Shown here piece after piece: positions 6,378 to 21,904 of a DNA stretch of 64,000 nucleotides (position 1 is the stretch's first letter; every line of letters starts with the position of its first letter). The stretch covers positions 1 to 64,000 of the forward strand of contig JACPPB010000002.1 in the NCBI GenBank assembly GCA_016191205.1, written 5' to 3'. The notes below the pieces were generated by a model that saw only the letters and a program-made list of their open reading frames with translations, did no database searches and had not been told where the DNA came from. The translations under genes and the position numbers were made by a program. The stretch comes from Gammaproteobacteria bacterium (GTDB lineage: Bacteria > Pseudomonadota > Gammaproteobacteria > Pseudomonadales > Porticoccaceae).

Positions 6378-6996
6378 GATCGCGCTCCACCGGCACCCGC
6401 CGGGCCAGCACCTCCGCGGATCCCGCGCCGCAGGCGATCACGGTCCGCAGCACCGCTTCCAGGGAGACGCCGGGCAGGAACTCCACGCATTCCGGCGGCA
6501 GGTGATAGACGAAGCCCGAGGTGGGAAACGGCGCGGTCGGCACATACACGGTGTAACCACCATCGGCATGGCGGCTGGTGACGATGGCAGTGACCTTCAC
6601 CGGCGACTCCAGCCCGTGAATGCGCGCCAGCGCGGGTTCGCCACTCAGCAGTCGGGAAGTTTCACCACTGCCCAATAATTCGCGCACCAGCCCGCTGGTG
6701 GCGCGATAGCCCGGGACCACTTTCGCAAGACTCGCATCGACCACTTCGTGCAGCCAGCGGCCGATCCGCGTGCGCACCGCGAGTCCCACCGAAAAGCACG
6801 TCGCAAGCATCAACGCTGCCACGGCGATCAACGCCACGACATCATTGAGTCCGGCCTCGCGGGACAGCAGTTGCGTCAACGGCCGCAGCGGTTCCGTCAC
6901 CAGGACGAACAACCACTGCATCACCATCATCACCAGGGCAGCGGGCAGCACCACCGCCAGCCCACTGAGCAAAATCAATAGCACATGGCGTTTCAT
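6358..6996 (-). CDS. DUF502 family membrane protein
   Basis: A 212-residue protein from the start MKRHVLLILLSGLAVVLPAA; an upstream in-frame ATG would add 17 arginine/proline-rich residues and is less likely. Two hydrophobic segments are near the N-terminus (about residues 5-33 and 50-72), followed by a soluble domain with GYTVYVPTAPFPTSG and a conserved-looking PPECVEFLPGVSLEAVLRTVIACG. This pattern matches DUF502, an inner-membrane family of unknown function. It is transcribed away from the sensor kinase and converges on mnmC with a short overlap. Confidence 0.8.
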   Translation of the reverse strand: MKRHVLLILLSGLAVVLPAALVMMVMQWLFVLVTEPLRPLTQLLSREAGLNDVVALIAVAALMLATCFSVGLAVRTRIGRWLHEVVDASLAKVVPGYRATSGLVRELLGSGETSRLLSGEPALARIHGLESPVKVTAIVTSRHADGGYTVYVPTAPFPTSGFVYHLPPECVEFLPGVSLEAVLRTVIACGAGSAEVLARRVPVERDLSAGPA

Positions 6997-7248
6997 GCGG
7001 AGCTTCCAGCGTGGGCGCGGACAGCAGGATACGGGGGAAAGCGGCACTGCCGCCAGTCAGATTCCCGCCCGCTCGATCCATCCCGTCCCGGAACCAGCGC
7101 CGCCCCGCCACAAGTGATTCGCCGCGGACCGCCACGGACATGGGGGCAGCCCGGCGAACGCACCGACGACAGCTGGAATGGCGCACAGGAACAGACAACA
7201 GAACGAATCCTGTATGCTGGATCCGTCCGATCCTTGCCGTCACAAACC

Positions 7249-10200
7249 GTGAGTCCGATCTCCAATCAGCCGGTGCGCATCATATTGTTGGGGGAGTTTG
7301 CCGGCGGCGCTCCTCAATTGCCTGTGCGTTTGACGCACTTGCGTGTAGAAAAACGCCTCTGTCCTGAGCTGGACCAGTTACCCGCGCCACTAACCTGGCA
7401 CGACCTGCTGATCACCGAGCTGGCCTGGCTCAACCGCTTGGGGCCCGACGCGCGCGACGCCTTGCGCGCGCATGCACGCGCCGCCGCGTACTGGATTGCG
7501 CTGACCGATGCCGGGGAGGGATTCGCGGAGCAGGTCGCCTGGCAGCGGGCAGGTGTCAGCCATCTGTTCCGCAAGCCACTGCACCGCGAGCAGCTTGCGC
7601 CATTGGTCCAACGCCTCTACGACCTGCTGGACGGTCCGCCGCTGCGGGTGCTCCTGCTGGACGGTACCCACGGTGCCCGATCGCGCCATGCCGCAACCCT
7701 TGAAAGCGCCGGCATGGTCGTGCGGGTAGTTCGGGAACCGGCGCACCTGCTGGATGCTATCGTCGAATTTGCGGCGGATCTCCTGCTGGTTGACGCGGAG
7801 CCGCACGGCTGTAGCGCTGCCGAGCTGATCGTCTTCGTACGCCAGCAGCCAAGCCTCGCCGAGCTACCGATCATCGTGCTCGGCGCGGCGGTGACGGTTA
7901 CCGAGCGTTTGGCGACGCTACCCATTGCTACCGATTACCTGCCCGACTCTCTGGCCCCGGCCTTGCTGCTCGCGGCCGTGCGATCGCGCGCCCTAGGTTC
8001 CCGGACCCGCCAGCGCGCTGACGCGCGGGACCGGAAGTTACAACGCGGAGTGCGCAATCTTTACCGAGACTTGTATCAGACCATCGAAGCCCACGCGCTC
8101 CTCAGTATCGCCGATGCCCAGGGCAACATCGTGCATGTCAACGACAGGTTCTGTGACATCAGCGGTTATCGCCGGGAAGAACTTCTGGGCGAAAACCACC
8201 GCATGATCAAATCCGACGTCCACCCGACGGAATTTTATGGTGAGCTCTGGAGCACCATCACCCGCGGCGAGGGCTGGCGCGGGGAAGTCTGCAATCGACG
8301 CAAGGACGGTGCGCTCTATTACGTCGAAGCGACCATCGTGCCGGTGCTGAACGACAAGGGCCGACCCGTCCAGTACCTGTCGATGCACACCGATGTCACC
8401 AACCTGAAGCGGCGGGAGACGGAACTTCGCGCCGTTGCCGAACGACTCGCCCGCAGCCAGCACTACGCGAATATCGGCACCTGGGACTGGAACATACAGA
8501 CAGGTGAACTTTACTGGTCGGAACGCATAGCACCCCTGTTCGGTTATCCAGACGGGGAGTTGGAAACGACCTACGAAAACTTCCTCAACGCGCTACATCC
8601 CGACGACCGGCAGACGGTCAGCGACGCTGTCGATGCCTGTGTCCAACAGGACAAGCCCTACGAAATCGAGCACCGCGTGGTGTGGCCGGACGGACAGGAG
8701 CGCTGGCTGCTAGAGCGTGGCAACGTGGTGCGCGATGCCGACGGCAAGCCGCTGCGCATGCTCGGCGTGGTGCAGGACATCGATGATCGCAAGCGCATCC
8801 AACTCGCGCTTGCCCAAAGCGAGCAGCGGCTGCGCGAGGCGCAGGCCCTGGCACATATAGGCAACTGGGAAGCCGATCTGACCAACGGCGAGTTGCTCTG
8901 GTCCGAAGAAATACCCCACATCTTCGGCCTCGACCCGACCATTTGCACGCTCGACGTGGACAGCTTCCACGCCGCCGTGCACCCGGACGACCGCGAACTG
9001 GTGCGCGCCAGCGAACGTCGCGCGCTGAAAACCGGGGTGCATGATCTTGTGCACCGCATCGTGCGTCCGGATGGTACCGTGCGATACGTTGATGTGCTCA
9101 CACGCGGAGCGCAGAATGCCGATGGCCGGATGCTCCGGCTGATCGGCACGGTGCAGGACGTCACGGAAGCCAAGGCAGCAGAGCACAGTCTCGAGTTGTT
9201 TCGCCGTATCTTCGATGCTTCCGAGCAATGTATCGGCGTCGCCGACAGCGAGGAGCGCATCGTGTACGTCAACAGCAGTTTTGAAAAGACACTGGGGTAC
9301 GCCTCGCAGGAGCTCATCCTGCAGCCAGCCAACTTGATTCTGTCGGAAATCGAGAGCGGCATTTCCTGGAAAGAGGTCATAGCCAAGCTTGCCTATGGCG
9401 ATCGCGGAACCGTGCAAATACCCTTCCGTCGCAAGGACGGCAGCTTTTTCACCTCACTCAGCAACGTTGGCGCGGTCAAGGACCAGCACGGCGAAATCCA
9501 GTACTACTTCGACATCTTCACCGACTTCGCCGAGGAACTCGCGCGGCGCGCCGAACTGGCCGAGGCCAGGGACGCCGCCGAGCGCGCCAACCAGGCGAAA
9601 TCCGAATTCCTGTCCAGCATGAGCCATGAGCTGCGTACCCCCCTGAACGCCATCATCGGCTTCGCCCAGATGCTGGAATACGACAACGGACTAAACGCCG
9701 AGCAGCAGGACAGCGCGCATGAAATCAGCCAGGCCGGCAACCACCTCCTGGATCTGATCAACGAAGTGCTCGACCTGGCCAAGGTCGAATCGGGCCACAT
9801 CAATCTTTCGCTTGAACTCGTGCCACTCGGTCCACTGGTCGAAGACTGCCAACACTTGATCCAACCCCTCACCGCGGCGCGGAAGCTTTCGTTGGTCTTC
9901 GACATTATCCCGGGCGCCACGGTGCGCGCCGATCGTGTACGGCTCAAGCAGGCGCTGCTCAATCTGCTTTCCAACGCTGTGAAGTACAACCGCGAACACG
10001 GCGAAGTCCGGGTGACCATCAGTCCCGGCGCCGAAAACTGCTTGCGCATCTCGGTCTCCGACACCGGACCGGGGATTCCGCTCGACTGCATGGCCAATCT
10101 CTTTCAGCCTTTCAATCGGCTGGGCGCGGAATACAGCGAAGTCGATGGCACCGGTATCGGCCTGACCATCACCCGCCGCCTTGTGGAGCTCATGGGCGGC

Positions 10201-10719
10201 ACCATCGGGGTCAGCAGCGAAGTCGGCGTCGGCTCCACCTTCTGGATCGATCTACCACAGTGGACGGGGGCTGCGCGGGAGATTTCGGCACAACCTGCAA
10301 CCGCGGCGTCATCGGATAGAGCCCCGGCGCACCAGCATCAGATCCTCTGCATCGACGATAACCCGGCAAATCTCAAGCTGATCGCACAGATGCTCGACAG
10401 GCACGGCAAAATCCATCTGATAACGGCCCACACGCCGACACTGGGCATCGAACTCGCCCTTGCGCATCGTCCGGATCTGATTCTGCTCGACATCAATATG
10501 CCGAACCTTGACGGCTACGAAGTACTGAAAATACTCATGGCAGACCTTCATTTGCGGCACGTTCCCGTGATCGCCATCACCGCCAACGCAATGCCCCGGG
10601 ACATTGCGCGCGGCATGGCGGCCGGCTTTACCGAATACCTTACCAAGCCACTTGAGTTGGAGCGATTTCTACAAACCATCGACCATCACTTGGTGTCCAT
10701 GGAGAAAAACCAACCATGA
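7249..10719 (+). CDS. hybrid sensor histidine kinase with multiple PAS domains
   Basis: A cytoplasmic-looking kinase of about 1156 residues from GTG at 7249 (VSPISNQPVRIILLGEF). An in-frame ATG at 6985 exists, but those 88 residues overlap the divergent DUF502 start and look non-coding. No transmembrane segment is evident. Order: two receiver-like N-terminal domains (about 1-120 and 125-245; the second keeps LLLVDAEPHG), four PAS domains (each repeat of the RKDG.. or HPDDR type), a HisKA H-box SHELRTPLNAIIGF with His793, an HATPase with N-box LLNLLSNAVKYN, DTGPGIP and GTGIGLTI, then a C-terminal receiver with LILLDINMP (Asp1081). It overlaps the following HD-GYP gene by 4 bases, so the pair is co-translated. 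Signal unknown. Confidence 0.88.
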   Translation: MSPISNQPVRIILLGEFAGGAPQLPVRLTHLRVEKRLCPELDQLPAPLTWHDLLITELAWLNRLGPDARDALRAHARAAAYWIALTDAGEGFAEQVAWQRAGVSHLFRKPLHREQLAPLVQRLYDLLDGPPLRVLLLDGTHGARSRHAATLESAGMVVRVVREPAHLLDAIVEFAADLLLVDAEPHGCSAAELIVFVRQQPSLAELPIIVLGAAVTVTERLATLPIATDYLPDSLAPALLLAAVRSRALGSRTRQRADARDRKLQRGVRNLYRDLYQTIEAHALLSIADAQGNIVHVNDRFCDISGYRREELLGENHRMIKSDVHPTEFYGELWSTITRGEGWRGEVCNRRKDGALYYVEATIVPVLNDKGRPVQYLSMHTDVTNLKRRETELRAVAERLARSQHYANIGTWDWNIQTGELYWSERIAPLFGYPDGELETTYENFLNALHPDDRQTVSDAVDACVQQDKPYEIEHRVVWPDGQERWLLERGNVVRDADGKPLRMLGVVQDIDDRKRIQLALAQSEQRLREAQALAHIGNWEADLTNGELLWSEEIPHIFGLDPTICTLDVDSFHAAVHPDDRELVRASERRALKTGVHDLVHRIVRPDGTVRYVDVLTRGAQNADGRMLRLIGTVQDVTEAKAAEHSLELFRRIFDASEQCIGVADSEERIVYVNSSFEKTLGYASQELILQPANLILSEIESGISWKEVIAKLAYGDRGTVQIPFRRKDGSFFTSLSNVGAVKDQHGEIQYYFDIFTDFAEELARRAELAEARDAAERANQAKSEFLSSMSHELRTPLNAIIGFAQMLEYDNGLNAEQQDSAHEISQAGNHLLDLINEVLDLAKVESGHINLSLELVPLGPLVEDCQHLIQPLTAARKLSLVFDIIPGATVRADRVRLKQALLNLLSNAVKYNREHGEVRVTISPGAENCLRISVSDTGPGIPLDCMANLFQPFNRLGAEYSEVDGTGIGLTITRRLVELMGGTIGVSSEVGVGSTFWIDLPQWTGAAREISAQPATAASSDRAPAHQHQILCIDDNPANLKLIAQMLDRHGKIHLITAHTPTLGIELALAHRPDLILLDINMPNLDGYEVLKILMADLHLRHVPVIAITANAMPRDIARGMAAGFTEYLTKPLELERFLQTIDHHLVSMEKNQP

Positions 10720-11771
10720 TCGAAAATATCGTCCACGCCGCGCGTATATTCATTGTCGACGACGAACCGGTGAATCTGAAGCTGCTGGGGCGCTTTCTCA
10801 CCACCCAGGGCTATGGCAACATCGAGCTGTTTCAGGATCCGCACGAGGTGCTCGCACGTTACCAGGAGGCGCGCCCCGACCTGATACTTCTTGACCTAAA
10901 CATGCCGCAAATGAACGGTTATGAAGTACTCGCCCAACTGCGCGCGCTGGACGACCCGCTGCTGCCACCGGTCGTTGGCCTCACCGCCCAACACAGCCGC
11001 GACCATCTCTTGAAGGCATTGTCCGCGGGCGCGCGGGACTTCATCCGCAAACCGTTCGACACCACCGAACTCCAGGTTCGTGTACACAACCTGATTGAGG
11101 CACATCTCGCGCACCGCATGCTGCACGATCAAGCGGCGGTGCTGGAGGAGCTGGTACAGCAGCGCACCGAAGTCCTCCAGCAAACCCGCTTGCAGGTGGT
11201 GCAGCGCCTGGCGCGCGCGGCGGAATACCGCGACAACGAAACCGGCAACCACATCCTGCGCATGGCCAAGGTATCCACGTTGCTCGCGGAAAGCCTGGGC
11301 TGGACTCCGGCGGAATGCGAACTGATGTCGCACGCAAGCCCCATGCACGATATCGGCAAGATCGGTATACCCGACGGAATACTGCTGAAACCCGGCAAGC
11401 TGGAACCCCTCGAATTCAAAATCATGCAGACCCATGCCGAAATCGGCGCCAAAATTCTCGACGGCGACGATTGCGACCTGATAAACCTCGCCAGGAGCAT
11501 CGCCCTGACTCACCACGAAAAATGGGATGGCACCGGCTATCCCAGGGGTCTGGCGGGCGCGGCTATCCCCATGGCCGGCCGTATCGTCGCCGTAGCCGAT
11601 GTCTTCGATGCGCTGACGTCCGTACGTCCCTACAAGGATGCCTGGCCGACAGAAAAGGCGGTGAACCAGATGAAAGAAGACGCGGGAACCCACTTCGACC
11701 CCGAAGTAATCGACCATTTCCTGAAGTGCCTGCCGAACATAATCGAAGTCACGCTACGCTACGCGGACTAA
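10716..11771 (+). CDS. HD-GYP response regulator, probable cyclic-di-GMP phosphodiesterase
   Basis: A 351-residue RpfG-like regulator. Residues 1-125 are a receiver with FIVDDEPVNLKLL and LILLDLNMPQMNG (phospho-acceptor Asp60) and the conserved Lys in RKPFD. A coiled-coil linker (about 135-165) leads into an HD-GYP domain: YRDNETGNHILRM, MHDIGKIGIPD (His211-Asp212), HHEKWDGTGYP (His266, GYP at 274-276) and VADVFDALTS. All metal ligands of active HD-GYP enzymes appear present, so degradation of c-di-GMP is likely. The start codon overlaps the stop of the hybrid kinase, which is very probably its partner. Confidence 0.9.
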   Translation: MIENIVHAARIFIVDDEPVNLKLLGRFLTTQGYGNIELFQDPHEVLARYQEARPDLILLDLNMPQMNGYEVLAQLRALDDPLLPPVVGLTAQHSRDHLLKALSAGARDFIRKPFDTTELQVRVHNLIEAHLAHRMLHDQAAVLEELVQQRTEVLQQTRLQVVQRLARAAEYRDNETGNHILRMAKVSTLLAESLGWTPAECELMSHASPMHDIGKIGIPDGILLKPGKLEPLEFKIMQTHAEIGAKILDGDDCDLINLARSIALTHHEKWDGTGYPRGLAGAAIPMAGRIVAVADVFDALTSVRPYKDAWPTEKAVNQMKEDAGTHFDPEVIDHFLKCLPNIIEVTLRYAD

Positions 11772-11858: not shown

Positions 11859-13649
11859 ATGAGTCGTACCGTTTCGATCACTGCCCCCACCGCGGCCACC
11901 GTTACACGGGTGGATGTGGCGGTGGGTGCGACCGTCACTGCCGGCGAGACCCTCGGGCTGCTGGTCACCGCGGCGGGCGAACTGCCGGTGCGCAGCGCCG
12001 CGGCGGGCGTGGTGCAGCACATTCATGTTGCGCCCGGCGACAGCGTGCCGGAGAACGGACCCATCTGTGCGATCCGCCTGACCGGCAAGCGCCGGCCGGT
12101 GCGCCCGGCGCCGCCGCCCGATCTCGCCGACAAGCACAGTCTGCTGCTACAGCAGCGCGCGCGCTTGCACAACACGCTGGACGCAGGCCGCCCCGCTGCG
12201 GTCGCAAAGCGGCGCGAGCGCGGTTATCGCACCGCGCGGGAAAACCTCGCCGATCTCTGCGACGCGGATTCATTTCAGGAATACGGACAACTGGCCGTGG
12301 CCGCCCAGCGCCAGCGCCGCGACTTCGACGATCTGGCGGTCAACACGGCGGCTGACGGCGTCATCACCGGGCTCGCCACCATCAACGCGGATCTGTTTGC
12401 CGGGGACAAGGCGCGTGCCGTGGTCATCGTCAACGATTACACCGTGCTCGCCGGCACCCAGGGTTATTTTCATCACCGCAAGCTTGACCGCGTCATGGAA
12501 CTCGCCGCAAAGCAACGCCTGCCGGTGGTGATGTACACCGAGGGCGGCGGCGGCCGGCCCGGCGATACCGATCAGATCGCGGGCATGGACGTGACCACCT
12601 TCGCGATGTGGGCCGGACTTGCCGGCGTGGTGCCGCGCATCGCCGTCAACAACGGCTTCTGCTTCGCGGGCAACGCCGCGCTGTTCGGTTGCGCCGACAT
12701 CACGGTGGCGACCCGCCAATCCTGGATCGGCATGGCCGGGCCGGCGATGATCGAAGGCGGCGGCATGGGTGTTTACCCGCCCACCGCCATCGGTCCCGTC
12801 GAAGTGCAGACCACCACCGGCGTCATCGACGTGCTCGCCGAAGACGAGCGCGACGCCACTCGCATCGCGCGGCAACTGCTGAGCTATTTCCAGGGACCGG
12901 TCGACGCCTGGCGCTGCGCCGACCAGAACCTGCTGTGGGAGCTGATGCCGGCGGATCGCCGCTACACCTACGATGTGCGCCGCATCATCACCACGTTGGC
13001 GGACGCCGACTCCTTCGTGGAGATTCGCCCGCACCATGGCAAAACCATCATCACCGGCCTGCTGCGTATCGAAGGCAAGCCGTTCGGACTGATCTGCAAC
13101 GACTGCCGCGTGCTCGGCGGCGCCATCGATACCCAGGGCGCCGCGAGCGCCGCGCGCTTTCTGAATCTGTGCAACGACTTCGCGCTGCCGGTGCTGTCGC
13201 TGTGCGACACGCCGGGTTTCATGGTCGGCCCCGAGAGCGAAACCGAAGGCGCGGTGCGCATCATGTCCGACCTCTTCACCGCCGGCGCGCGCCTGCGCTC
13301 ACCGCTGGTGGCGATCGTCCTGCGCAAGGGCTACGGCCTGGGCGCCATCGCGATGACGGGCGGCAGTTTCTCGCGCCCGATCCATTCCGCCGCCTGGCCC
13401 ACCGGCGAGTTCGGCGCCATGGGGCTCGAAGGCGCGGTGCATCTCGGCTTCAAGAAGGAACTGGACGCGGCCGCCACCGAAGCGGAACGCGAAGCATTGT
13501 TCGCCAAGTTGATTGGCGCGCTCTACGACCGCGGCAAGGCGACCGAAGCCGCCACCCATCTCGAAATCGACGCGGTGATCGAGCCGCAACATACCCGACA
13601 GGTGATTTTGCGGGCGGTTGGGGGCGTTCGGACCAAACCCACCATCTGA
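11859..13649 (+). CDS. acyl-CoA carboxyltransferase with N-terminal lysine-less biotinyl-like domain
   Basis: A 596-residue protein. Residues about 1-75 look like a biotinyl/lipoyl barrel (AVGATVTAGETLGLLV, AAAGVVQHIHVAPGDSVPENG). The hairpin that should carry EAMKM or DKA reads VTAAGELPVRS, and there is no lysine in the first 75 residues. The rest is a two-domain carboxyltransferase of the propionyl/methylcrotonyl/acetyl-CoA carboxylase type (PF01039), with MYTEGGGGRPGDTD, GMAGPAMIEGGGMGVYPPTAIG in the first half and LSLCDTPGFMVGPESE, RKGYGLGAIAMTGG in the second. It should transfer carboxyl from carboxybiotin to an acyl-CoA, but the biotin carrier and biotin carboxylase are not adjacent. 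Substrate unknown. It could instead be a decarboxylase-type subunit. Confidence 0.78.
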   Translation: MSRTVSITAPTAATVTRVDVAVGATVTAGETLGLLVTAAGELPVRSAAAGVVQHIHVAPGDSVPENGPICAIRLTGKRRPVRPAPPPDLADKHSLLLQQRARLHNTLDAGRPAAVAKRRERGYRTARENLADLCDADSFQEYGQLAVAAQRQRRDFDDLAVNTAADGVITGLATINADLFAGDKARAVVIVNDYTVLAGTQGYFHHRKLDRVMELAAKQRLPVVMYTEGGGGRPGDTDQIAGMDVTTFAMWAGLAGVVPRIAVNNGFCFAGNAALFGCADITVATRQSWIGMAGPAMIEGGGMGVYPPTAIGPVEVQTTTGVIDVLAEDERDATRIARQLLSYFQGPVDAWRCADQNLLWELMPADRRYTYDVRRIITTLADADSFVEIRPHHGKTIITGLLRIEGKPFGLICNDCRVLGGAIDTQGAASAARFLNLCNDFALPVLSLCDTPGFMVGPESETEGAVRIMSDLFTAGARLRSPLVAIVLRKGYGLGAIAMTGGSFSRPIHSAAWPTGEFGAMGLEGAVHLGFKKELDAAATEAEREALFAKLIGALYDRGKATEAATHLEIDAVIEPQHTRQVILRAVGGVRTKPTI

Positions 13650-13972: not shown

Positions 13973-14701
13973 ATGAGCCTCTACGCCGTTACCCGCGACC
14001 ATGGCGCCGCACTCTACGCCCAAATCGCCCGTCAACTCGAACAGGACGTCACCAACCTCTACGCTGCCGGCGACTGCCTCCCCTCGGAGGGCGACCTGGC
14101 GCAGCGCTTCGGCGTCAACCGTCACACCCTGCGGCGGGCGATCGATCAATTGGTCACCGTGGGTTTGCTGGAGCGCCGCCACGGGCGTGGCGTGTTCGTG
14201 CTCGACACCCAGATCGACTACCAGATCGGCGCCGGCACCCGCTTCACCGAGAACCTGGCAGCCCTCGGGTTGCAAGCGGAAAACCGCATCCTGCGCAAAC
14301 AGACGCTGCCCGCCGTTGCGCGGATCGCCGAGCGCCTGGGGCTTGCAGTAAACGCTCCGGTGTTCTGGATCGAGACGCTGCGAACCACCGACGCGCGTCC
14401 GCTGTGCGTGATCTCGCATTTCATTTCCGCGACGCGCTTTCCCGGCCTGGATGAGCAGTACGCGGGCGGGTCGCTGCACCAGTTTCTCGCCGCGACCCAC
14501 GGCTGCAAGCTCAGCAGGACAGAAAGCCTGGTGACCGCAGTGCTGCCGCAAGGCGATGACGCGCGGCTGCTGGCCATGCCGCAGCACTGGCCGGTGCTGC
14601 GGGTCAAGAGTGTCAACGTGGACGACCGGGATGGCACCCCGGTCGAGTACGCCATCACCCGGTTCCGCGCCGACCGGATCCAACTGCGCATCAATCCTTG
14701 A
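13973..14701 (+). CDS. phnF: GntR-family regulator of phosphonate metabolism
   Basis: A 242-residue HutC-type GntR regulator. The N-terminal winged helix contains LYAQIARQLEQDV, LPSEGDLAQRFGVNRHTLRRAIDQL and GLLERRHGRGVFV (about residues 12-80). The C-terminal part is a UTRA ligand domain. As the first gene of a C-P lyase operon it is called PhnF. Related PhnF proteins repress phosphonate or phosphate-uptake genes. A TGTCTA/AGATAA dyad immediately before the start codon suggests autoregulation. Only 35 bases separate it from phnD. Confidence 0.9.
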   Translation: MSLYAVTRDHGAALYAQIARQLEQDVTNLYAAGDCLPSEGDLAQRFGVNRHTLRRAIDQLVTVGLLERRHGRGVFVLDTQIDYQIGAGTRFTENLAALGLQAENRILRKQTLPAVARIAERLGLAVNAPVFWIETLRTTDARPLCVISHFISATRFPGLDEQYAGGSLHQFLAATHGCKLSRTESLVTAVLPQGDDARLLAMPQHWPVLRVKSVNVDDRDGTPVEYAITRFRADRIQLRINP

Positions 14702-14736
14702 CCTGTCTATCGATCAACCTTACGGGAGCAATCGCA

Positions 14737-15609
14737 ATGCATATCAAACACACCCTTGCAGCCACGGCGCTGGCCCTGGCTGTTTCCCTTACCGCTGCTT
14801 CCGCGCAGGCGCGCGAAATCGTCATGGGCCTCATCCCGGCGGAAAACAACGAGGAAATGGTGCAGCAATTCGAACCGATGCGCGCCTACCTCGAAAAAAA
14901 GCTGGGCGAGAAAGTGAAGGTGTTCACTGCCACCGATTACGCCGGCGTGATTGAGGCGATGAAGAAGAAGCGCGTCGATATCGCCTGGTTCGGGCCGCTG
15001 TCCTATTACCTGGCCGAGCAGGAAGCCGGTGCCGAAGCCTTTGCCGTCGGCATCCGTGAAGGCAGCAGTTCGCACACCTACAAGAGCTTATTCGTCGCGC
15101 CCTGCGATTCCGGCATCAAGTCGATCAAGGATCTGAAGGGCAAGAGCGTGGCCTTCGTCGACCCGGCCTCCACCTCCGGCGGCCTGATGCCCACCTATAT
15201 GGTCAAGCAGGAAACGGGGCAGATGCCGCAGGAATTCTTCGGCAAATTCACCTACGCCGGTTCCCACGACGCCGCCGAGCTGGCGGTCAAGAACAAGACC
15301 GTGGACGCCGCTGCCGACAACGACATCACCTACGAAAAAATGCTGGCCAACGGCCTCATCAGCAAAGAAACCAACTGCGTGATCAAGGAGTCCGACCCGC
15401 TGCCCGGCTCACCTCTGGTCTATCGCGGCGATCTGCCGCCGGCAATGAAAAAGAAAATTCAGGATGCCATTCTCACTGCCCACCAGGACATCAAGGTCAC
15501 CGGCTATGGCAGCCTGAGCCACTACGTGGCCATCACCCCCGCGGATTACCAGATGATCCGCGACATGGTGAACGAGCTCGGCCTGCGCAAGGAGCAGATG
15601 CTCAAGTAA
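14737..15609 (+). CDS. phnD: phosphonate ABC transporter substrate-binding protein
   Basis: Periplasmic receptor that delivers phosphonates to PhnCE. The 290-residue protein starts MHIKHTLAATALALAVSL with a signal peptide, cleaved probably after AQA (residue about 25). The mature part has the family features GLIPAENNEEMVQQFEPM, DYAGVIEAMKKKRVDIAWFGPLSY and SVAFVDPASTSGGLMP. The start at 14737 is preceded by ACGGGAG; an in-frame ATG 39 bases upstream would precede the signal peptide. High confidence for the transporter role; ligand range not readable. Confidence 0.95.
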   Translation: MHIKHTLAATALALAVSLTAASAQAREIVMGLIPAENNEEMVQQFEPMRAYLEKKLGEKVKVFTATDYAGVIEAMKKKRVDIAWFGPLSYYLAEQEAGAEAFAVGIREGSSSHTYKSLFVAPCDSGIKSIKDLKGKSVAFVDPASTSGGLMPTYMVKQETGQMPQEFFGKFTYAGSHDAAELAVKNKTVDAAADNDITYEKMLANGLISKETNCVIKESDPLPGSPLVYRGDLPPAMKKKIQDAILTAHQDIKVTGYGSLSHYVAITPADYQMIRDMVNELGLRKEQMLK

Positions 15610-15670
15610 TCGTCCGAGACAGGGCGGATCGCGCTGGTCCGCCTTGCCTGACAAAAAAGGAGAAAACCTG

Positions 15671-16450
15671 ATGTCCGCGATTTCCATTCAATCGGTATCG
15701 AAACGCTTTCCGAACGGCTGCGAAGCCCTGATGGGCATCAATGCCGAGATCCAACCCGGGAGCTTCACGGTGGTACTGGGGCCGAGTGGCGCCGGCAAAT
15801 CCACGCTGCTGCGTGTCCTGAACGGCCTGGAAGCCTCCACCGACGGCAGCGTGCGGATCGGCGGCGAAACCCTGGGCAAGGGCAATTTGCGCAAGCTGCG
15901 TGCCAGCGTCGCCATGGTATTCCAGCAGTTCAACCTGGTGGATCGCCTGTCGGTGGTGACCAACGTCCTGACCGGTCGTCTCGCGCACCGCTCCTGGGTG
16001 GGCAGCCTGTTTTATCTGTTCCGCACCGAGGACATGGAAGTCGCCAGGCAAGCATTGGCGCGCGTCGGACTCACCGACAAGGCCTGGAGCCGCGCCGACA
16101 AGCTCTCCGGCGGACAGCAACAGCGCGTGGGTATCGCCCGCGCGCTGGCGCAGCGACCCAAGGTGATCCTCGCCGACGAGCCGGTCGCCAGTCTCGATCC
16201 GGTAGCGAGCGAGGAAATCATGGCCCTGTTGCGGGAGATCCGCGACCGCGACGGCATCACCGTGGTCGTCAACCTGCATCAGGTGGATCTGGCGCGGCGC
16301 TTCGCCGATCGCATCATCGGCATGAACGGCGGTCGCGTCGTCTTCGACGGCACGCCCGCCGAACTTTCGCCGCAGGCCCTGCGCACCATTTATCAACGAG
16401 AAGGCATGGAACATGACAACAGTCTCGATCTGGCGCTGGCCTACGCCTAG
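15671..16450 (+). CDS. phnC: phosphonate ABC transporter ATP-binding protein
   Basis: Cytoplasmic ATPase of the phosphonate importer, 259 residues. Walker A is [11 protein letters not shown] (about residues 37-47), the Q-loop is [13 protein letters not shown], the signature is [15 protein letters not shown], and Walker B is [13 protein letters not shown]; the switch histidine is in VNLHQVDLA. The start is preceded by AAAGGAG. The 3' end overlaps the first permease gene by 38 bases. Confidence 0.96.
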
Positions 16451-17228
16451 CGGCCTGCCGCCGCTGCCGCTGGTCGGTGGCGCGCTGGCGCTGCTTGGGG
16501 CGCTCTGGCTGACCGCTCCGGTGGTGGAGGTGGACTTCGTCCGCCTGCTCGGCGCCCTCGGCAGGATGGTCGCCTTCGCCGGACAGATGTTCGTCACGCC
16601 CGACTGGCACTATGTGCCGCAACTGCTGGCGAAAATGCTGGAAACCATCGAAATGACGGTGCTGGGCACCGCTATTGCGATCGTTGTCAGCCTGCCACTG
16701 GGCCTCCTGGCCGCGGGCAACGCCACGCCGCATCCACTGGTCTACCGGATCACGCGCGACCTGTTGAGCCTGATGCGCGCCCTGCCGGAACTGGTGTGGG
16801 CGCTGGTCTTCGTGTCCGCGGTCGGCCTCGGCCCCCTGCCGGGTGTGATGGCGCTGGCCTTCGTGACCGTCGGTTTCATGGGCAAGTTCTTCGCCGAGGC
16901 CATCGAGGTAGTCGATCACAAGGCGGTGGAAGGCGTGCGGGCGCACGGCGCGGGCTGGCTGCAGGTGCGGCTATTCGCCATGCTGCCCCAGGCACTGCCG
17001 GATTTCGTCGGCACGGTAATGTACATCCTCGATCACAACCTGCGCGCGGCGACCATCCTCGGCCTGGTCGGCGCGGGCGGTATCGGCTACGACCTGGTGA
17101 TGTCGATGCGCCTGTTCCAGTACGACCGGCTGCTGCTGATCGCACTGGCCATCTATCTGGTGGTGACGCTGCTGGATCGCCTGTCGGATCGCTTGCGCAG
17201 CCGCATTATTCACGGAGCGCGGGCATGA
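16413..17228 (+). CDS. phnE: phosphonate ABC transporter permease, copy 1
   Basis: Inner-membrane permease of 271 residues with about six hydrophobic segments and the BPD-type coupling region EAIEVVDHKAVEGVRAHGAGWLQ. The PhnE hallmark segments LLSLMRALPELVWALVFVSAVGLGPLPGVMAL and LDHNLRAATILGLVGAGGIGYDL are present. It is followed with a 4-base overlap by a second, related permease, so the channel is probably a PhnE1-PhnE2 heterodimer. The exact start is uncertain because the gene overlaps phnC. Confidence 0.93.
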   Translation: MTTVSIWRWPTPSGLPPLPLVGGALALLGALWLTAPVVEVDFVRLLGALGRMVAFAGQMFVTPDWHYVPQLLAKMLETIEMTVLGTAIAIVVSLPLGLLAAGNATPHPLVYRITRDLLSLMRALPELVWALVFVSAVGLGPLPGVMALAFVTVGFMGKFFAEAIEVVDHKAVEGVRAHGAGWLQVRLFAMLPQALPDFVGTVMYILDHNLRAATILGLVGAGGIGYDLVMSMRLFQYDRLLLIALAIYLVVTLLDRLSDRLRSRIIHGARA

Positions 17229-18034
17229 ATATCCATGATCTGAAATCGGCTCGACCGCCACAACTATCGCTGCCGCCGAAGCCGCGCAACCCGATGCCGG
17301 TCTGGGTGGCGACAACACTGGTGACGCTGTGGCTGATCGTGTGGGATCTGGACATCTCGTTCGAGGCGCTCGTCTACGGCGTGGCGGACATGGGCGAGTA
17401 TTTCAGCCGCTATGGGCAACCCGATTTTTCCGACTTGTCCAGATATCTGGAACTGATGGGCATCACCCTGGCCACCGCGCTCTGGGGCACGGCGTTCGCG
17501 CTACTGGTCGCGTTTTTCCTGGCGCCGCTGGCCGCGCGCAACTTCGCGCCGAACCCGGTGGCCTACCGTGTTGCCCGGGAGATCCTCAATTTCATGCGCG
17601 CCATGCCGGACCTGCTGCTGGCGCTGATCTTCGTCGCCGCCCTCGGGCTGGGGCCGCTGCCCGGCGCCCTGGCGCTGGGGGTGCATACCGCCGGATTCCT
17701 CGGCAAATTCTTCGCCGAAAGCCTGGAGCGTGTCGATCAAGGCGTCTGTGAAGGCGTCGCGGCGACCGGCGCGAATTTCCCGCAGCGGGTCATGTACGCC
17801 GGCTGGCCCTCCATTCTGCGCGAGGCGCTGGGCTACACCCTCTACATCCTCGACCGCAACGTGCGCATGGCCTCGGTGCTCGGCCTGGTCGGCGCCGGCG
17901 GCATCGGGCTGGCGCTGCACGACACCTTGCGCCTGTTCGACTACGGCCAGTCGGCGGCGCTGATTCTGGTCATTCTGGCCACCATTTTGATCATCGACTA
18001 CGCCTCGGCGTGGTTGCGCGGGAGGCTGGGCTGA
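17225..18034 (+). CDS. phnE: phosphonate ABC transporter permease, copy 2
   Basis: A 269-residue permease similar in layout to the preceding gene (EILNFMRAMPDLLLALIFVAALGLGPLPGALAL; LDRNVRMASVLGLVGAGGIGLAL), with a longer polar N-terminus before the first hydrophobic segment. ATG overlaps the previous stop. Two tandem phnE genes are common in proteobacterial phosphonate operons. The next gene, phnG, starts on the last base of its stop codon. Confidence 0.93.
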   Translation: MNIHDLKSARPPQLSLPPKPRNPMPVWVATTLVTLWLIVWDLDISFEALVYGVADMGEYFSRYGQPDFSDLSRYLELMGITLATALWGTAFALLVAFFLAPLAARNFAPNPVAYRVAREILNFMRAMPDLLLALIFVAALGLGPLPGALALGVHTAGFLGKFFAESLERVDQGVCEGVAATGANFPQRVMYAGWPSILREALGYTLYILDRNVRMASVLGLVGAGGIGLALHDTLRLFDYGQSAALILVILATILIIDYASAWLRGRLG

Positions 18035-18501
18035 TGCTCCTGGAACGCACAGACTGGATCCGGGCGCTCACCGCCCATCCCGCCCCCGATTTGCACGCGC
18101 TGGCCGAGCGGCTGGCGGCCGGCTGCGAAGTCAGGCTCACCCGCCTGCCGCAGGCCGGCCTGGGCCTGCTTCAGCTTGCCGACGGCGCCTTTCACGAAGC
18201 CTATTACCTGGGCGAATTTCCGCTGTCCATATGCAGCCTTGAACTGACGCTGGCGGATGGCCGCCGGGCTGAAGGCGGCGCCCAGGTCATGGCCGACGAC
18301 GCGGCGCTCGCCCGCTCGCTGGCGATCCTCGACGCCGTGCTCGCGGCCCGGCTGCCGGGGTGGGAAGCGGTGTCCGCGCAGGTGCACTCCGGGGCCGCGC
18401 GGCGCGACGAGGAAGCCTGCCGCCGCCGCGCCGTGCTCGCCGCCACCCGGGTCGACGTCGCCCTGCTGGGCAATGTCGGGGAGGATGAAAATGAAGCGTG
18501 A
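18034..18501 (+). CDS. phnG: phosphonate C-P lyase system protein PhnG
   Basis: Subunit of the PhnGHIJ core complex, which with PhnI helps install the triphosphate-ribose phosphonate. 155 residues, starting MLLERTDWIRALTAHPAPDL; the family features YYLGEFPLSICSLEL and the late DVALLGNVG are present. The start codon at 18034 overlaps the phnE2 stop; an in-frame ATG 24 bases upstream is inside phnE2. It overlaps phnH by 11 bases. Confidence 0.93.
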   Translation: MLLERTDWIRALTAHPAPDLHALAERLAAGCEVRLTRLPQAGLGLLQLADGAFHEAYYLGEFPLSICSLELTLADGRRAEGGAQVMADDAALARSLAILDAVLAARLPGWEAVSAQVHSGAARRDEEACRRRAVLAATRVDVALLGNVGEDENEA

Positions 18502-19072
18502 ATGCATCTGGCAGGCCGATGCCCAGCAGTGCGTATTCCGCGAACTGGTCGAGGCGTTTTCGCGGCCGGGCGCGGTGCGCGATCTGACAGACTGGCTCGC
18601 GGGCACCGCTGCGCAACGCGCCGTACTGGCGACCCTGATGGATGGGGAGACCACGCTCGCCGATCCTCACGCACGGCTCGGCGCCGCGGACTGGTCTCTG
18701 CTCCAGGCCCGGCGGGACACCACGGAGAGCGCCCGCTACGTCGTCGCCGACGGCCGCCGGGCACCCGGCTTCCAGCCGGCGCTGGGTACGCTGGAAAGCC
18801 CGGAAATGGGCGCGACCCTGCTGATCGAAGTGGCTGCCGTGGGCAGCGGCCCGCTGGCCCTGGAACTCGCCGGGCCTGGAATTGACGGTCTTGGCATCGA
18901 CGGCCGCGGTGAACTGCACCTGGACGGTCTGCATCCAGACTGGTTGGCCCGCCGCGCGGACTGGACCGCCGGTTTTCCGCTTGGCGTCGACATCCTGCTC
19001 ACCGATGCGGCGCGCATCGTCGCCTTGCCGCGCACCACACGCGTGACCATTACAGGGAACCCGCTGACATGA
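18491..19072 (+). CDS. phnH: phosphonate C-P lyase system protein PhnH
   Basis: Core-complex subunit, a dimeric protein of the PLP-transferase fold that has lost its cofactor site, 193 residues here. It starts MKRECIWQADAQQCVFRELVEAFSRPGAV, typical of the family (FR.LL.A.S.PG). The start at 18491 was preferred to the ATG at 18485 because GGGGAGG then lies 6 bases upstream. The late LPRTTRV is typical. Its stop overlaps the phnI start by 4 bases. Confidence 0.93.
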   Translation: MKRECIWQADAQQCVFRELVEAFSRPGAVRDLTDWLAGTAAQRAVLATLMDGETTLADPHARLGAADWSLLQARRDTTESARYVVADGRRAPGFQPALGTLESPEMGATLLIEVAAVGSGPLALELAGPGIDGLGIDGRGELHLDGLHPDWLARRADWTAGFPLGVDILLTDAARIVALPRTTRVTITGNPLT

Positions 19073-20181
19073 GTTACGTTGCCATCAAGGGCGGCGGCCG
19101 CGCCATCGCCGGCGCCGCCGCCGTCACCGAATACCTGCGTACCGAACAAGGGCTGGACAATCCCGCCGCCGAGCCGCTCGCCATCGACGCCATCCTGCAT
19201 CAGTTGCGCCATCTGGTGGATCGCGTCGTTTCCGAAGGCGGGGTGTATCACCCACAATTCGCCGCGCTCGCCGTCAAGCAGAGCCTGGGCGACACGCTGG
19301 AAGCCGCGTTCGCGCTGCGCGCCTGGCGCTCCACTCGGCCGCGCCTGTCTGCCACGCCGCCGCTCGATACCTCGCGCATGCGCCTGATCCGCCGCATCTC
19401 GTCCGCCTTCAAGGATATTCCCGGCGGCCAGATGCTGGGGCCGACGCCGGACTACGCCCTGCGCCTGCTGCGCCTGGAACTGATGGACGAATCACCCGAG
19501 GCCTTCCGCGCCGTGGCGCGCGACTGGCTGGAGAACTGCCCCGAAGCGGATCTGCCCGACAGTTTCCCCAAGGTGCTCGACGCCCTGCGCGCGGAAGGCC
19601 TGCTGCCGCCGCTCGGCGCGGTGCGGGACGAAGCCCCTTTCGATATCACCCGCGAACCGCTGGTGTTTCCGGTGCCGCGTTCGGCGGCGCTGTCCACCCT
19701 GGCGCGGGCGGAAACCGGCGCGCTGCTGGCCATCGCCTATTCCAACATGCGCGGCTACGGCGACGTGCACCCCACGGTGGCGGAACTGCGGGTCGGCTAT
19801 CTGCCGGTGCTGCTGCCGCATCCGGTGACCGGCGAACTCACCGAAGCCGGCGAGGTGTTGATGACCGAGTGCGAGGTGGTGGCAATGTTTGAGGCCGACG
19901 ATGCCGGTGGCAAGCCCATGTTCACCGTCGGCTATGGCGCCTGTTTCGGCCACAACGAGGTCAAGGCGATTGCCATGGCCATTCTCGATCGCGCGCTGCA
20001 GAAGGGTATGCAGGACGGCCCGGAAAACCCGTCCGAAGATCCGGAGTTCGTGCTGCTGCACGTCGATGGCGTCGATTCCATGGGCTTCGCCTCGCATTAC
20101 AAGATGCCGCATTACGTCACCTTTCAGTCCGACCTGGACCGCCTGCGCACCACGCGGCAGAAGTCGGGAGAGCCCGCATGA
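19069..20181 (+). CDS. phnI: phosphonate C-P lyase system protein PhnI
   Basis: 370 residues. PhnI acts as the nucleosidase that, with PhnG, PhnH and PhnL, attaches phosphonate to ribose triphosphate in place of adenine. Family features seen are MSYVAIKGGGRAI at the N-terminus, RLIRRISSAFKDIPGGQMLGP, MRGYGDVHPTVAELRVG, GYGACFGHNEVKAIAMAILD and a C-terminal HYKMPHYVTFQSDLDR. Length is as expected and no defect was seen. Confidence 0.96.
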   Translation: MSYVAIKGGGRAIAGAAAVTEYLRTEQGLDNPAAEPLAIDAILHQLRHLVDRVVSEGGVYHPQFAALAVKQSLGDTLEAAFALRAWRSTRPRLSATPPLDTSRMRLIRRISSAFKDIPGGQMLGPTPDYALRLLRLELMDESPEAFRAVARDWLENCPEADLPDSFPKVLDALRAEGLLPPLGAVRDEAPFDITREPLVFPVPRSAALSTLARAETGALLAIAYSNMRGYGDVHPTVAELRVGYLPVLLPHPVTGELTEAGEVLMTECEVVAMFEADDAGGKPMFTVGYGACFGHNEVKAIAMAILDRALQKGMQDGPENPSEDPEFVLLHVDGVDSMGFASHYKMPHYVTFQSDLDRLRTTRQKSGEPA

Positions 20182-21077
20182 ACGCCATGCCCCACACCAC
20201 CCGCGGCAGCGCCTACAACTTCGGCTTTCTCGACGAATACGCCAAGAAGGAAATCCGCCGCGCCGTCCTCAAGGCGATCGCCATCCCCGGCTACCAGGTG
20301 CCCTACGCCTCGCGCGAAATGCCCATGGGGCGCGGCTTCGGCACCGGCGGCCTGCAACTGACGCTGGCGCTGATCGGCCCCGGCGAGGTCGTCAAGGTCA
20401 TCGACCAGGGCGCCGACGACTCGGTCAACGCGGTCAACCTGCGCCAGTTCATCGAGATGACCTGTCCCGGCATCGCCACCACCACGAAAACGGCGGAGAG
20501 CACCCTGATCCAGTCGCGCCACCGCATTCCGGAGCAGCCGCTGACAGCGACGCAGATCCTCGTCCTGCAGGTGCCTTATCCCGACCCGCTGGTGGTGGTC
20601 GAGCCGTCCGAGGACAAACGCAAGGTCATGCACGGCGAGGCCGACTATTCGCGCCTGCTGGTGAAGCTCTACGAGGACATCGTCCAGTTCGACGAGATCA
20701 CCATCTCGCACCGTTATCCGACGCGCATCAACGGCCACTACGTCATCGACCCGTCGCCGATTCCGCGCTGGGACGTGCCCAGGCTCAACGATGCGGCGGC
20801 CCTGACCTTGTTCGGCGCCGGGCGCGAGAAGAAGATTTACGCCGTGCCGCCGCACACGCGGGCGGAGCCGCTGGCTTTCAGCGACGTGCCGTTCCGGGTC
20901 GAGGATTTCCGCGACGCGGCGGGACGGCGCCGCGCCTGCGCCCGCTGCGGCTGCACGGATTCCTTCCTCGACGAGTTCGTCGGCGATGCCGGCAGCAAGA
21001 CGTATCAGTGCTCGGACAGCGACTGGTGCGATGAACAATTGCTTCAGGCTGAACACGCCCAGGGAGAACCCGCGTGA
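20178..21077 (+). CDS. phnJ: alpha-D-ribose 1-methylphosphonate 5-phosphate C-P lyase
   Basis: Radical-SAM C-P lyase that breaks the carbon-phosphorus bond, giving methane from methylphosphonate and a cyclic ribose phosphate. 299 residues beginning around YNFGFLDEYAKKEIRRAVLKAI. The unusual iron-sulfur ligands are near the C-terminus: Cys254-x2-Cys257 ... Cys278-x5-Cys284, closely matching the spacing C-x2-C-x21-C-x5-C of E. coli PhnJ (one residue shorter in the middle). A fifth cysteine, Cys259, lies in the first pair (CARCGC). Four-base overlaps at both ends tie it to phnI and phnK. Confidence 0.96.
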   Translation: MNAMPHTTRGSAYNFGFLDEYAKKEIRRAVLKAIAIPGYQVPYASREMPMGRGFGTGGLQLTLALIGPGEVVKVIDQGADDSVNAVNLRQFIEMTCPGIATTTKTAESTLIQSRHRIPEQPLTATQILVLQVPYPDPLVVVEPSEDKRKVMHGEADYSRLLVKLYEDIVQFDEITISHRYPTRINGHYVIDPSPIPRWDVPRLNDAAALTLFGAGREKKIYAVPPHTRAEPLAFSDVPFRVEDFRDAAGRRRACARCGCTDSFLDEFVGDAGSKTYQCSDSDWCDEQLLQAEHAQGEPA

Positions 21078-21904
21078 ACAGGATTCTCGAAGTCCGCGGT
21101 CTCTCCAGGATCTACGGCCCGGGCTGCCCGCACTGCGTCGACGCCACCGGCCCGGAGGCCGACACCAACCGCTGCCCGCACTGCGGCAGCATCGTCGCCA
21201 TCCATGACGTGTCCTTCGACCTGTTCGAGGGCGAGATCCTGGGCGTCATGGGCGAATCGGGCAGCGGCAAATCGACCGTGGTGAAGACCCTGTATTTCGA
21301 TCAGGCGCCCACCGGCGGCGAAGCGGTCTTTTTCGACGGCGACACGCAGCACGAGCTGTTCGCCCTCAACGCCGCGCGGCAGCGCTGGCTGCGCAACCAC
21401 CGCTTCGGCATGGTCTACCAGAACCCGAATCTGGGCCTGAATTTCAACATCAGCGCCGGCGGCAACATCGCCGAGCGCCTGCTGATGAGCGACCTGATGG
21501 ACTACGGCGCGATCCGCGAACGGGCCAAGACCTTGCTGGCGCGCACCGAGGTGCTGCTCTCTCGTGTCGACGATCTGCCGAAGCACTTCTCCGGCGGCAT
21601 GCAGCAACGGGTGCAGATCGCCAAGGCGCTCGCCACCCAGCCGCCGCTGCTGTTTCTCGACGAAGTGACCACCGGGCTCGATCTGTCGGTGCAGGCGCGC
21701 ATTCTCGACCTGATCCTGGAAATCCAGCAGGAACTGAAGACCGCCATGGTCGTCGTCACCCACGATCTCGGCGTGATCCGCCTGCTGACCGGCCGCGCCA
21801 TCGTCATGAAATACGGCCGCGTCATCGAGACGGGGCTGACCGATCAAATCCTCGAAGACCCCCGGCACGCCTATACCCAGCGGCTGGTGGCGTCCGCCCT
21901 GTGA
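21074..21904 (+). CDS. phnK: C-P lyase system ATP-binding protein PhnK, with cysteine-pair insert
   Basis: ABC-type ATPase that binds the C-P lyase core, 276 residues. Walker A GESGSGKSTVV (60-70), signature FSGGMQQRVQIAKAL, Walker B LLFLDEVTTGLDL and THDLGVIRLL are intact. Between the first strand (EVRGLSRIYGPG) and the Walker A there is an extra segment with CPHC at 18-21 and CPHC at 34-37, which looks like a small zinc ribbon and which I do not recall in E. coli PhnK. PhnK has no membrane partner; its role is as a mechanical ATPase on the core. Confidence 0.93.
   Translation: MNRILEVRGLSRIYGPGCPHCVDATGPEADTNRCPHCGSIVAIHDVSFDLFEGEILGVMGESGSGKSTVVKTLYFDQAPTGGEAVFFDGDTQHELFALNAARQRWLRNHRFGMVYQNPNLGLNFNISAGGNIAERLLMSDLMDYGAIRERAKTLLARTEVLLSRVDDLPKHFSGGMQQRVQIAKALATQPPLLFLDEVTTGLDLSVQARILDLILEIQQELKTAMVVVTHDLGVIRLLTGRAIVMKYGRVIETGLTDQILEDPRHAYTQRLVASAL

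Follow-up and report, generated by a model that had tools for sequence, protein, structure and literature searches.

What does a carboxyltransferase do once the biotin carrier domain in its own chain can no longer carry biotin? The question is raised by a gene in the 64,000-nt stretch of gammaproteobacterial DNA analysed here, which we call the window. A first-pass annotation, made from the sequence alone, had described it as a carboxyltransferase (CT) fused to a biotinyl-like domain without lysine. The gene and its parts are:

11859-13649, forward strand: CT gene with a biotinyl-type N-terminus, an ATG-started open reading frame of 596 aa.
11859-12083, forward strand: degenerate biotinyl (BCCP-like) barrel, residues 1-75, from PF00364, the lysine column, the fold and dN/dS.
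12084-12158, forward strand: variable linker, residues 76-100, from lower model confidence and lower identity.
12159-13646, forward strand: carboxyltransferase of LCC or single-chain type, both lobes, residues 101-596, from PF01039, 4rcn and 5fif.
12432-12464, forward strand: N-lobe acyl-CoA-side loop NDYTVLAGTQG, residues 192-202, from column conservation.
13203-13229, forward strand: C-lobe biotin-side loop ii, CDTPGFMVG, residues 449-457, 6 of 6 conserved columns kept.
13323-13352, forward strand: C-lobe biotin-side loop iii, RKGYGLGAIA, residues 489-498, 6 of 6 conserved columns kept.

A promoter and terminator scan gave no promoter-like site. In Pfam searches of the protein, Biotin_lipoyl (PF00364) scores 28.1 bits over residues 7-72, against a cut-off of 22.1, and Carboxyl_trans (PF01039) scores 237 bits over residues 118-586. 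The AlphaFold2 model, built from a 63-row alignment, has a mean pLDDT of 92.8, and its blocks 1-70 (pLDDT 88-97) show the strand alternation of a biotinyl barrel, with the hairpin turn flanked by residues 37 and 40. Model confidence is 60-74 in blocks 71-90, the linker, where the window protein and its relative L022 are 44% identical (residues 74-100), vs. 82% in the CT.

Residues 1-75 contain no lysine at all (the first is K77), residues 36-46 read VTAAGELPVRS where an EAMKM hairpin is expected, and Ala39 occupies the column of the biotin lysine. Here the first-pass annotation holds: the replaced hairpin is read directly and makes biotinylation at the canonical site impossible, and the barrel is borne out by the PF00364 match, the lysine column and the fold of the domain alone. 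When isolated domains are scored against PF00364, the other two lysine-less copies known to us reach 21.0 and 23.3 bits and four lysine-bearing relatives reach 55-65, so we regard the domain as real but degraded. Because the first alignment included lysine-bearing relatives, residues 1-78 were refolded from the three lysine-less sequences alone, and the result is again a barrel, with mean pLDDT 69.7 and strands much as before. The barrel was folded and searched by itself because the VIA-align rows cover mainly residues 88-596. All but one of the 50 Foldseek matches listed for the refolded barrel are biotin carrier domains or enzymes containing one (E-values 5.6e-5 to 9.4e-4); the exception is of the 2-oxo-acid E2 type.

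Where does this protein come from? Its best match among solved structures is 4rcn, a single-chain long-chain acyl-CoA carboxylase, at 575 bits from the biotinyl domain through the CT. It also matches 5fif, the CT domain of a single-chain carboxylase that we take to be YCC of Deinococcus radiodurans, at 536 bits. The next solved match is a PCC beta chain at 199 bits, and no other chain scores higher than that. The window model (residues 1-587) aligns to 4rcn_B 485-1073, and the two share the CT sequence and the biotinyl-then-CT order; 4rcn, however, has 1093 residues with about 490 ahead of the biotinyl domain and keeps EAMKM, whereas the window protein has neither the biotin carboxylase (BC) part nor the lysine. 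The CT of 5fif, which by its description derives from a complete single-chain carboxylase, is 53% identical to the window CT (Z 49.0, rmsd 1.6 over 492 residues), shares NDPAVLGGAID in biotin-side loop i, and keeps a Pro at the position of Cys416 in the window protein. PCC and ACC beta subunits (1vrg, 1xnv, 1on3) have the same CT fold at Z of about 38-39 but only about 28% identity to the window CT. Such beta subunits work with an alpha subunit that is usually encoded nearby.

Two features of the LCC/YCC class are thus present, a CT closest to that class and a biotinyl domain directly ahead of it (PF00364 at 7-72, CT from 118), and two are missing, the biotinylatable lysine (Ala39) and a BC domain in the same chain (a 596-aa frame). 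Because it is closest to 4rcn and 5fif and has the biotinyl-then-CT order, we see the window protein as the C-terminal half of a single-chain acyl-CoA carboxylase. PMC6491548 places the CT of LCC in the amino-terminal region, unlike our alignments (to 4rcn, and structural), which put it at the carboxyl end.

To place the loss of the lysine, we compared 110 loci (L021-L130). A genome search supplied 30 of them, among these the window's own locus (L021), and the other 80 are the best of 587 confirmed matches. Judged by their open frames, 55 loci encode full-length proteins of about 1,100 aa, 21 encode short proteins that include the N-terminal domain, and the remaining 34 are CT-only; L054, whose N-terminus is unrelated and has no biotinyl sequence, was classed as CT-only by hand, L056 is also CT-only, and the pairs L042/L052 and L050/L065 are probably the same genomes in two collections. 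The biotin-column lysine is present in 55 of 55 full-length forms and in 18 of the 21 short ones, and the exceptions are the window (A39) and two genomes of its genus (A and D). So as to relatives that retain a biotinylated lysine in this domain, the lysine-less reading of the first-pass annotation stands for three copies from one genus and fails beyond it. Because all the full-length and most of the short relatives retain the lysine, its loss is recent and, among the loci examined, limited to the window's genus. The fourth genome of this genus (L025) has the CT gene with no biotinyl domain.

A tree of 115 CT sequences plus outgroup, made quickly under a simple model after setting aside duplicates of the same CT sequence and two loci truncated at contig ends (L037 and L127), groups 49 BC-less rows (30 CT-only, 16 with the lysine, 3 without) in one clade with SH-aLRT 98, nested among the full-length enzymes. 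We call these rows orphans; L115, L119 and L122 are BC-less forms that fall outside the main clade and are not among the 49. Inside a group of 16 rows (99), the three that have the domain but not the lysine make up a clade (100), and the other 13 are all CT-only. When all 33 rows that have no usable carrier are constrained to a single clade, lnL drops by 106 and the AU test rejects the topology (p 0.007); parsimony counts 5 changes inside the BC-less clade for loss of the lysine or of the domain. Short forms that keep the lysine, with no BC nearby, are the intermediates. The tree thus shows that the main clade lost BC a single time and that several of its branches gave up the carrier afterwards, each on its own.

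Is the remaining barrel still of use? For three pairs within the genus, dN/dS of the lysine-less domain is 0.25, 0.41 and 0.48, and the ratio of domain dN to CT dN is about 2.3-2.8, vs. about 2.0-4.6 in the lysine-bearing pairs computed; several of the dS values in this analysis are near saturation. The domain is not evolving freely, because dN/dS is below 1 and the dN ratio lies inside the lysine-bearing range. Together with the stretch TA[AD]GELPV, common to the hairpins of all three copies (VTAAGE, ETAAGE and ETADGE), these values speak for selection on some structural or docking function of the barrel within this genus, as the first-pass annotation had proposed. We find that role improbable: it would concern one genus only, with dS near saturation in several pairs, and the domain is missing both from L025 of the same genus and from 12 neighbouring rows. 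On several occasions, sister lineages have discarded the domain entirely while retaining the CT. We therefore read the barrel not as a conserved docking module but as a vestige that must still fold and on which purifying selection still acts, although the dN/dS values do favour some remaining role.

If the domain is dead, is the CT alive? The CT frame is open in all four genomes of the genus, and its dN/dS within the genus is 0.16-0.19, lower than that of the lysine-less domain. We took columns at least 95% conserved in full-length forms and scored them in the 33 orphans with no functional carrier. The loops are assigned to the CoA and biotin sides on the assumption that PCC structures apply, and loop iii, RKGYGLGAIA, we take from the PCC literature to be the oxyanion loop for biotin. 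Four CoA-side segments keep 32 of 35 conserved columns and the biotin side keeps 15 of 17 (12/12 in loops ii and iii, 3/5 in the third loop), while columns elsewhere are kept in 34 of 49 cases in the C-lobe and 32 of 39 in the N-lobe. The acyl-CoA-side loop NDYTVLAGTQG keeps 7 of its 9 conserved columns in the biotinyl-less orphans. The earlier claim that the CT part retains its CoA and oxyanion loops is thus upheld, with loop roles assigned from PCC structures, and we infer that the CT of the window protein is probably a working enzyme.

Some positions of the active site have been remodelled. Tyr192 of the full-length forms is Asn in 37 of 49 orphans, 45 of the 49 have Cys, Ser or Asn in place of Pro416, which lies in the third biotin-side loop, and Asn stands at 264 in 45 and at 265 in 46 of the 49. 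Because these four positions changed in most of the clade, they suggest, as far as sequence can tell, a substrate different from that of the full-length enzymes.

That the gene is a decaying pseudogene with no function, as missing partner domains and a lost lysine might imply, we consider very unlikely given the dN/dS and open frames of the CT, and given how widespread these forms are. Of the 390 genomes in the order, 73 have a match with an E-value of 1e-170 or better; counted by hand, 28 of these are CT-only, 10 are short forms whose N-terminal region aligns, 33 have full-length frames (>1,000 aa) and 2 are unclear, so that short BC-less forms occur in 38 of the 390 (hand count). A CT-only gene is also present in 39 of 53 genomes of the SAR11 family of G099. 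Of these 39, 32 have a BC frame of 660-700 aa and 31 one of 446-460 aa (a hand count in which incomplete genomes cannot separate the two). A second SAR11 CT of about 548 aa is found at G098:C2:70079-71521 with equivalents in G097, G100 and G101, and none of the one or two BC genes in each genome was seen to belong to it. G045 carries two equal-scoring CT-only copies (on C7 and C9), perhaps by duplication or as an effect of assembly.

Who, then, might supply the CT with carboxybiotin? A BC query found nothing in 22 sources (the 64 kb window, the wider regions L131-L150, and L155); as a control, it matched in four of five regions of the window's own genome, the fifth (L165) being a carbamoyl-phosphate synthase region. 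BC and other biotinyl matches in that genome are all on other contigs, which confirms that no BC or carrier gene lies beside the CT gene and sets it apart from a PCC-type carboxylase, where the alpha gene lies with the CT gene. More broadly, a scan of 55 BC-less loci (22 short and 33 CT-only, as then classed) found a BC near one of them, 7.5 kb away at L067; the flanks of the 30 loci from the genome search extend no further than 1.5 kb. Four BCs are encoded in the window's genome, which is 91% complete. One adjoins an AccB-like carrier, another a 617-aa biotinyl protein, the third a split CT gene on C36, and the fourth a CT on C69. We rejected a split-off BC half elsewhere in this genome, and the orphan BC for which the first-pass annotation had left room is likewise absent from it, because each of the four adjoins its usual partners. 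The CT gene on C36 (G000:C36:31608-32832), the second of this genome, is split over two frames, perhaps by a frameshift or a sequencing error.

With the biotinyl site dead and the CT intact, a carrier encoded elsewhere, which had been offered as an option at the outset, remains a live one. A BC is present in 15 of 15 and 30 of 30 genomes of two hand-picked whole-genome samples (one of the 15, G024, lacks a match to the orphan CT). We rejected the idea that the CT must have an alpha subunit dedicated to it: PccA/MccA-type subunits are seemingly not required, because G072 (99% complete) and G168 (98%) have the CT-only gene and no such subunit. Their biotin set consists of AccB/AccC, a biotinyl protein of 596 aa that we take to be of OadA type, and a 973-aa BC-biotinyl protein. 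The last of these is accompanied by a CT of its own and by proteins that look, as read from the sequence with no family search, like a methylmalonyl-CoA mutase and MeaB. AccBC would therefore be, by gene content, a sufficient common denominator as carrier source across the sampled genomes. At loci L214, L215 and L216, a protein of 973-979 aa with BC-like and biotinyl parts is flanked on one side by a CT of about 600 aa and on the other by a protein of 727 aa that looks like a methylmalonyl-CoA mutase, an unusual arrangement for a propionyl-CoA carboxylase.

The neighbourhood gives little further guidance. Among 45 clustered sources (BC-less loci with longer flanks, window included), no neighbour is common to all BC-less loci, and outside SAR11 none is shared across loci. 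Genes for CoA transferase III, enoyl-CoA hydratase or acyl-CoA dehydrogenase lie within 5 kb of 9 of 40 orphan and 14 of 53 full-length loci, with no clear difference. In the window, a hybrid histidine kinase with several PAS domains and then an HD-GYP-type response regulator lie directly upstream (6985-11771), a pair not found beside the CT gene in the other three genomes of the genus. A C-P lyase phosphonate cluster occupies 13973-21904, with PhnF, PhnD, PhnC, two PhnE, PhnG and PhnH above cut-off and PhnK below; the two open frames at 19069-21077 look like PhnI and PhnJ and have no NCBIfam match at 1e-15. A phosphonate link of the CT gene was rejected because the neighbours differ in the other three genomes of the genus, where phosphonate genes are not beside it.

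The explanation that we favour, and hold at about an even chance, is that the window protein is the C-terminal half of an LCC-type enzyme that lost first its BC and then its carrier, leaving a working CT fed in trans. The phylogeny shows the order of the losses: the BC half went first, with a biotinylatable domain retained, and the carrier later, branch by branch, beginning with the lysine in the window's genus and elsewhere with the whole domain. The remaining CT would take carboxybiotin from the carrier of another gene, either housekeeping AccB/AccC or an alpha subunit of PccA/MccA type, and would transfer CO2 to or from an acyl-CoA unlike that of the full-length enzymes. The N-terminal barrel would be a non-catalytic remnant, perhaps aiding folding or solubility.

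Several observations count against feeding in trans. The divergence ratio of C-lobe to N-lobe is 1.13 in orphans and 0.99 in full-length forms (from pairs that are not independent), and the Pro416 loop is changed in 45 of 49. Docking between a CT and its carrier is usually specific, and the identity between LCC-type CTs and PCC beta chains is only about 26-30%. Across the loci scanned, we found nothing that ties the CT gene to a carrier, whether physically or through an operon. And an enzyme that had abandoned biotin would also be expected to lose its carrier repeatedly once BC was gone.

Could the CT instead have been repurposed, as in MdcD-MdcE, into a biotin-independent malonyl-CoA or alkylmalonyl-CoA decarboxylase using the CoA-side oxyanion hole alone? 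Biotin would then be out of use, and BC and carrier free to vanish. We consider this somewhat unlikely, yet it accommodates the single loss of BC and several losses of the carrier in the main clade, and the remodelled site at 192, 416, 264 and 265. As described in PMC5534430, MdcD-MdcE decarboxylates malonyl-CoA with a CT-related fold and no biotin; its MdcE is much less conserved when compared with the biotin-binding CT subunit because it binds a different compound. No such decay of the biotin side is seen in the orphan CTs, where loops ii and iii are fully kept (12/12 columns). MdcD-MdcE also differs in having separate subunits and a dedicated acyl carrier protein, and the window CT scores far under the cut-offs of the MdcD (beta) models (37.4 of 228 and 34.2 of 278 bits). 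No MdcE above cut-off was found in 145 genomes; in the window's genome (91% complete) the best score is 29.6 bits (TIGR03134 cut-off 237), at an AccA-like CT.

The decarboxylase alternative draws further on SAR11, where in 7 of 7 loci (L058-L063, L066) an Amdase-family gene overlaps the CT stop or starts within 6 bases of it. This gene, of the two-cysteine Amdase/Asp-Glu racemase family, encodes 243-248 aa and matches PF17645 at 62-66 bits in the 3 scanned; by its position, it is a likely operon partner of the CT. Ahead of the CT, 6 of the 7 loci have a gene from one cluster, a cytochrome b561 in the one member scanned. That the whole free-standing clade of LCC-type CTs in SAR11 and marine Gammaproteobacteria left biotin to become a cofactor-free alkylmalonyl-type decarboxylase, with the window barrel a snapshot of the transition, we regard as rather unlikely.

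LCC is already known; the free-standing BC-less form is the new part. We found no description of a stand-alone or biotin-free CT clade, or of the SAR11 gene, in the open-access literature searched, which is weak evidence, as subscription papers lie mostly outside it. What the family presents is a multidomain biotin enzyme dismantled stepwise, from the full enzyme to a BC-less form with a live carrier, to a BC-less form with a dead carrier (the window), to a form with no carrier, and every stage survives in living genomes. Because the CT-only gene is retained in the streamlined genomes of SAR11, this end product probably has a real job that annotation has missed. Either the CT lives off a shared pool of carboxybiotin, or it has left biotin behind; in both cases, a widespread enzyme with close relatives in very abundant ocean bacteria has gone unnoticed.
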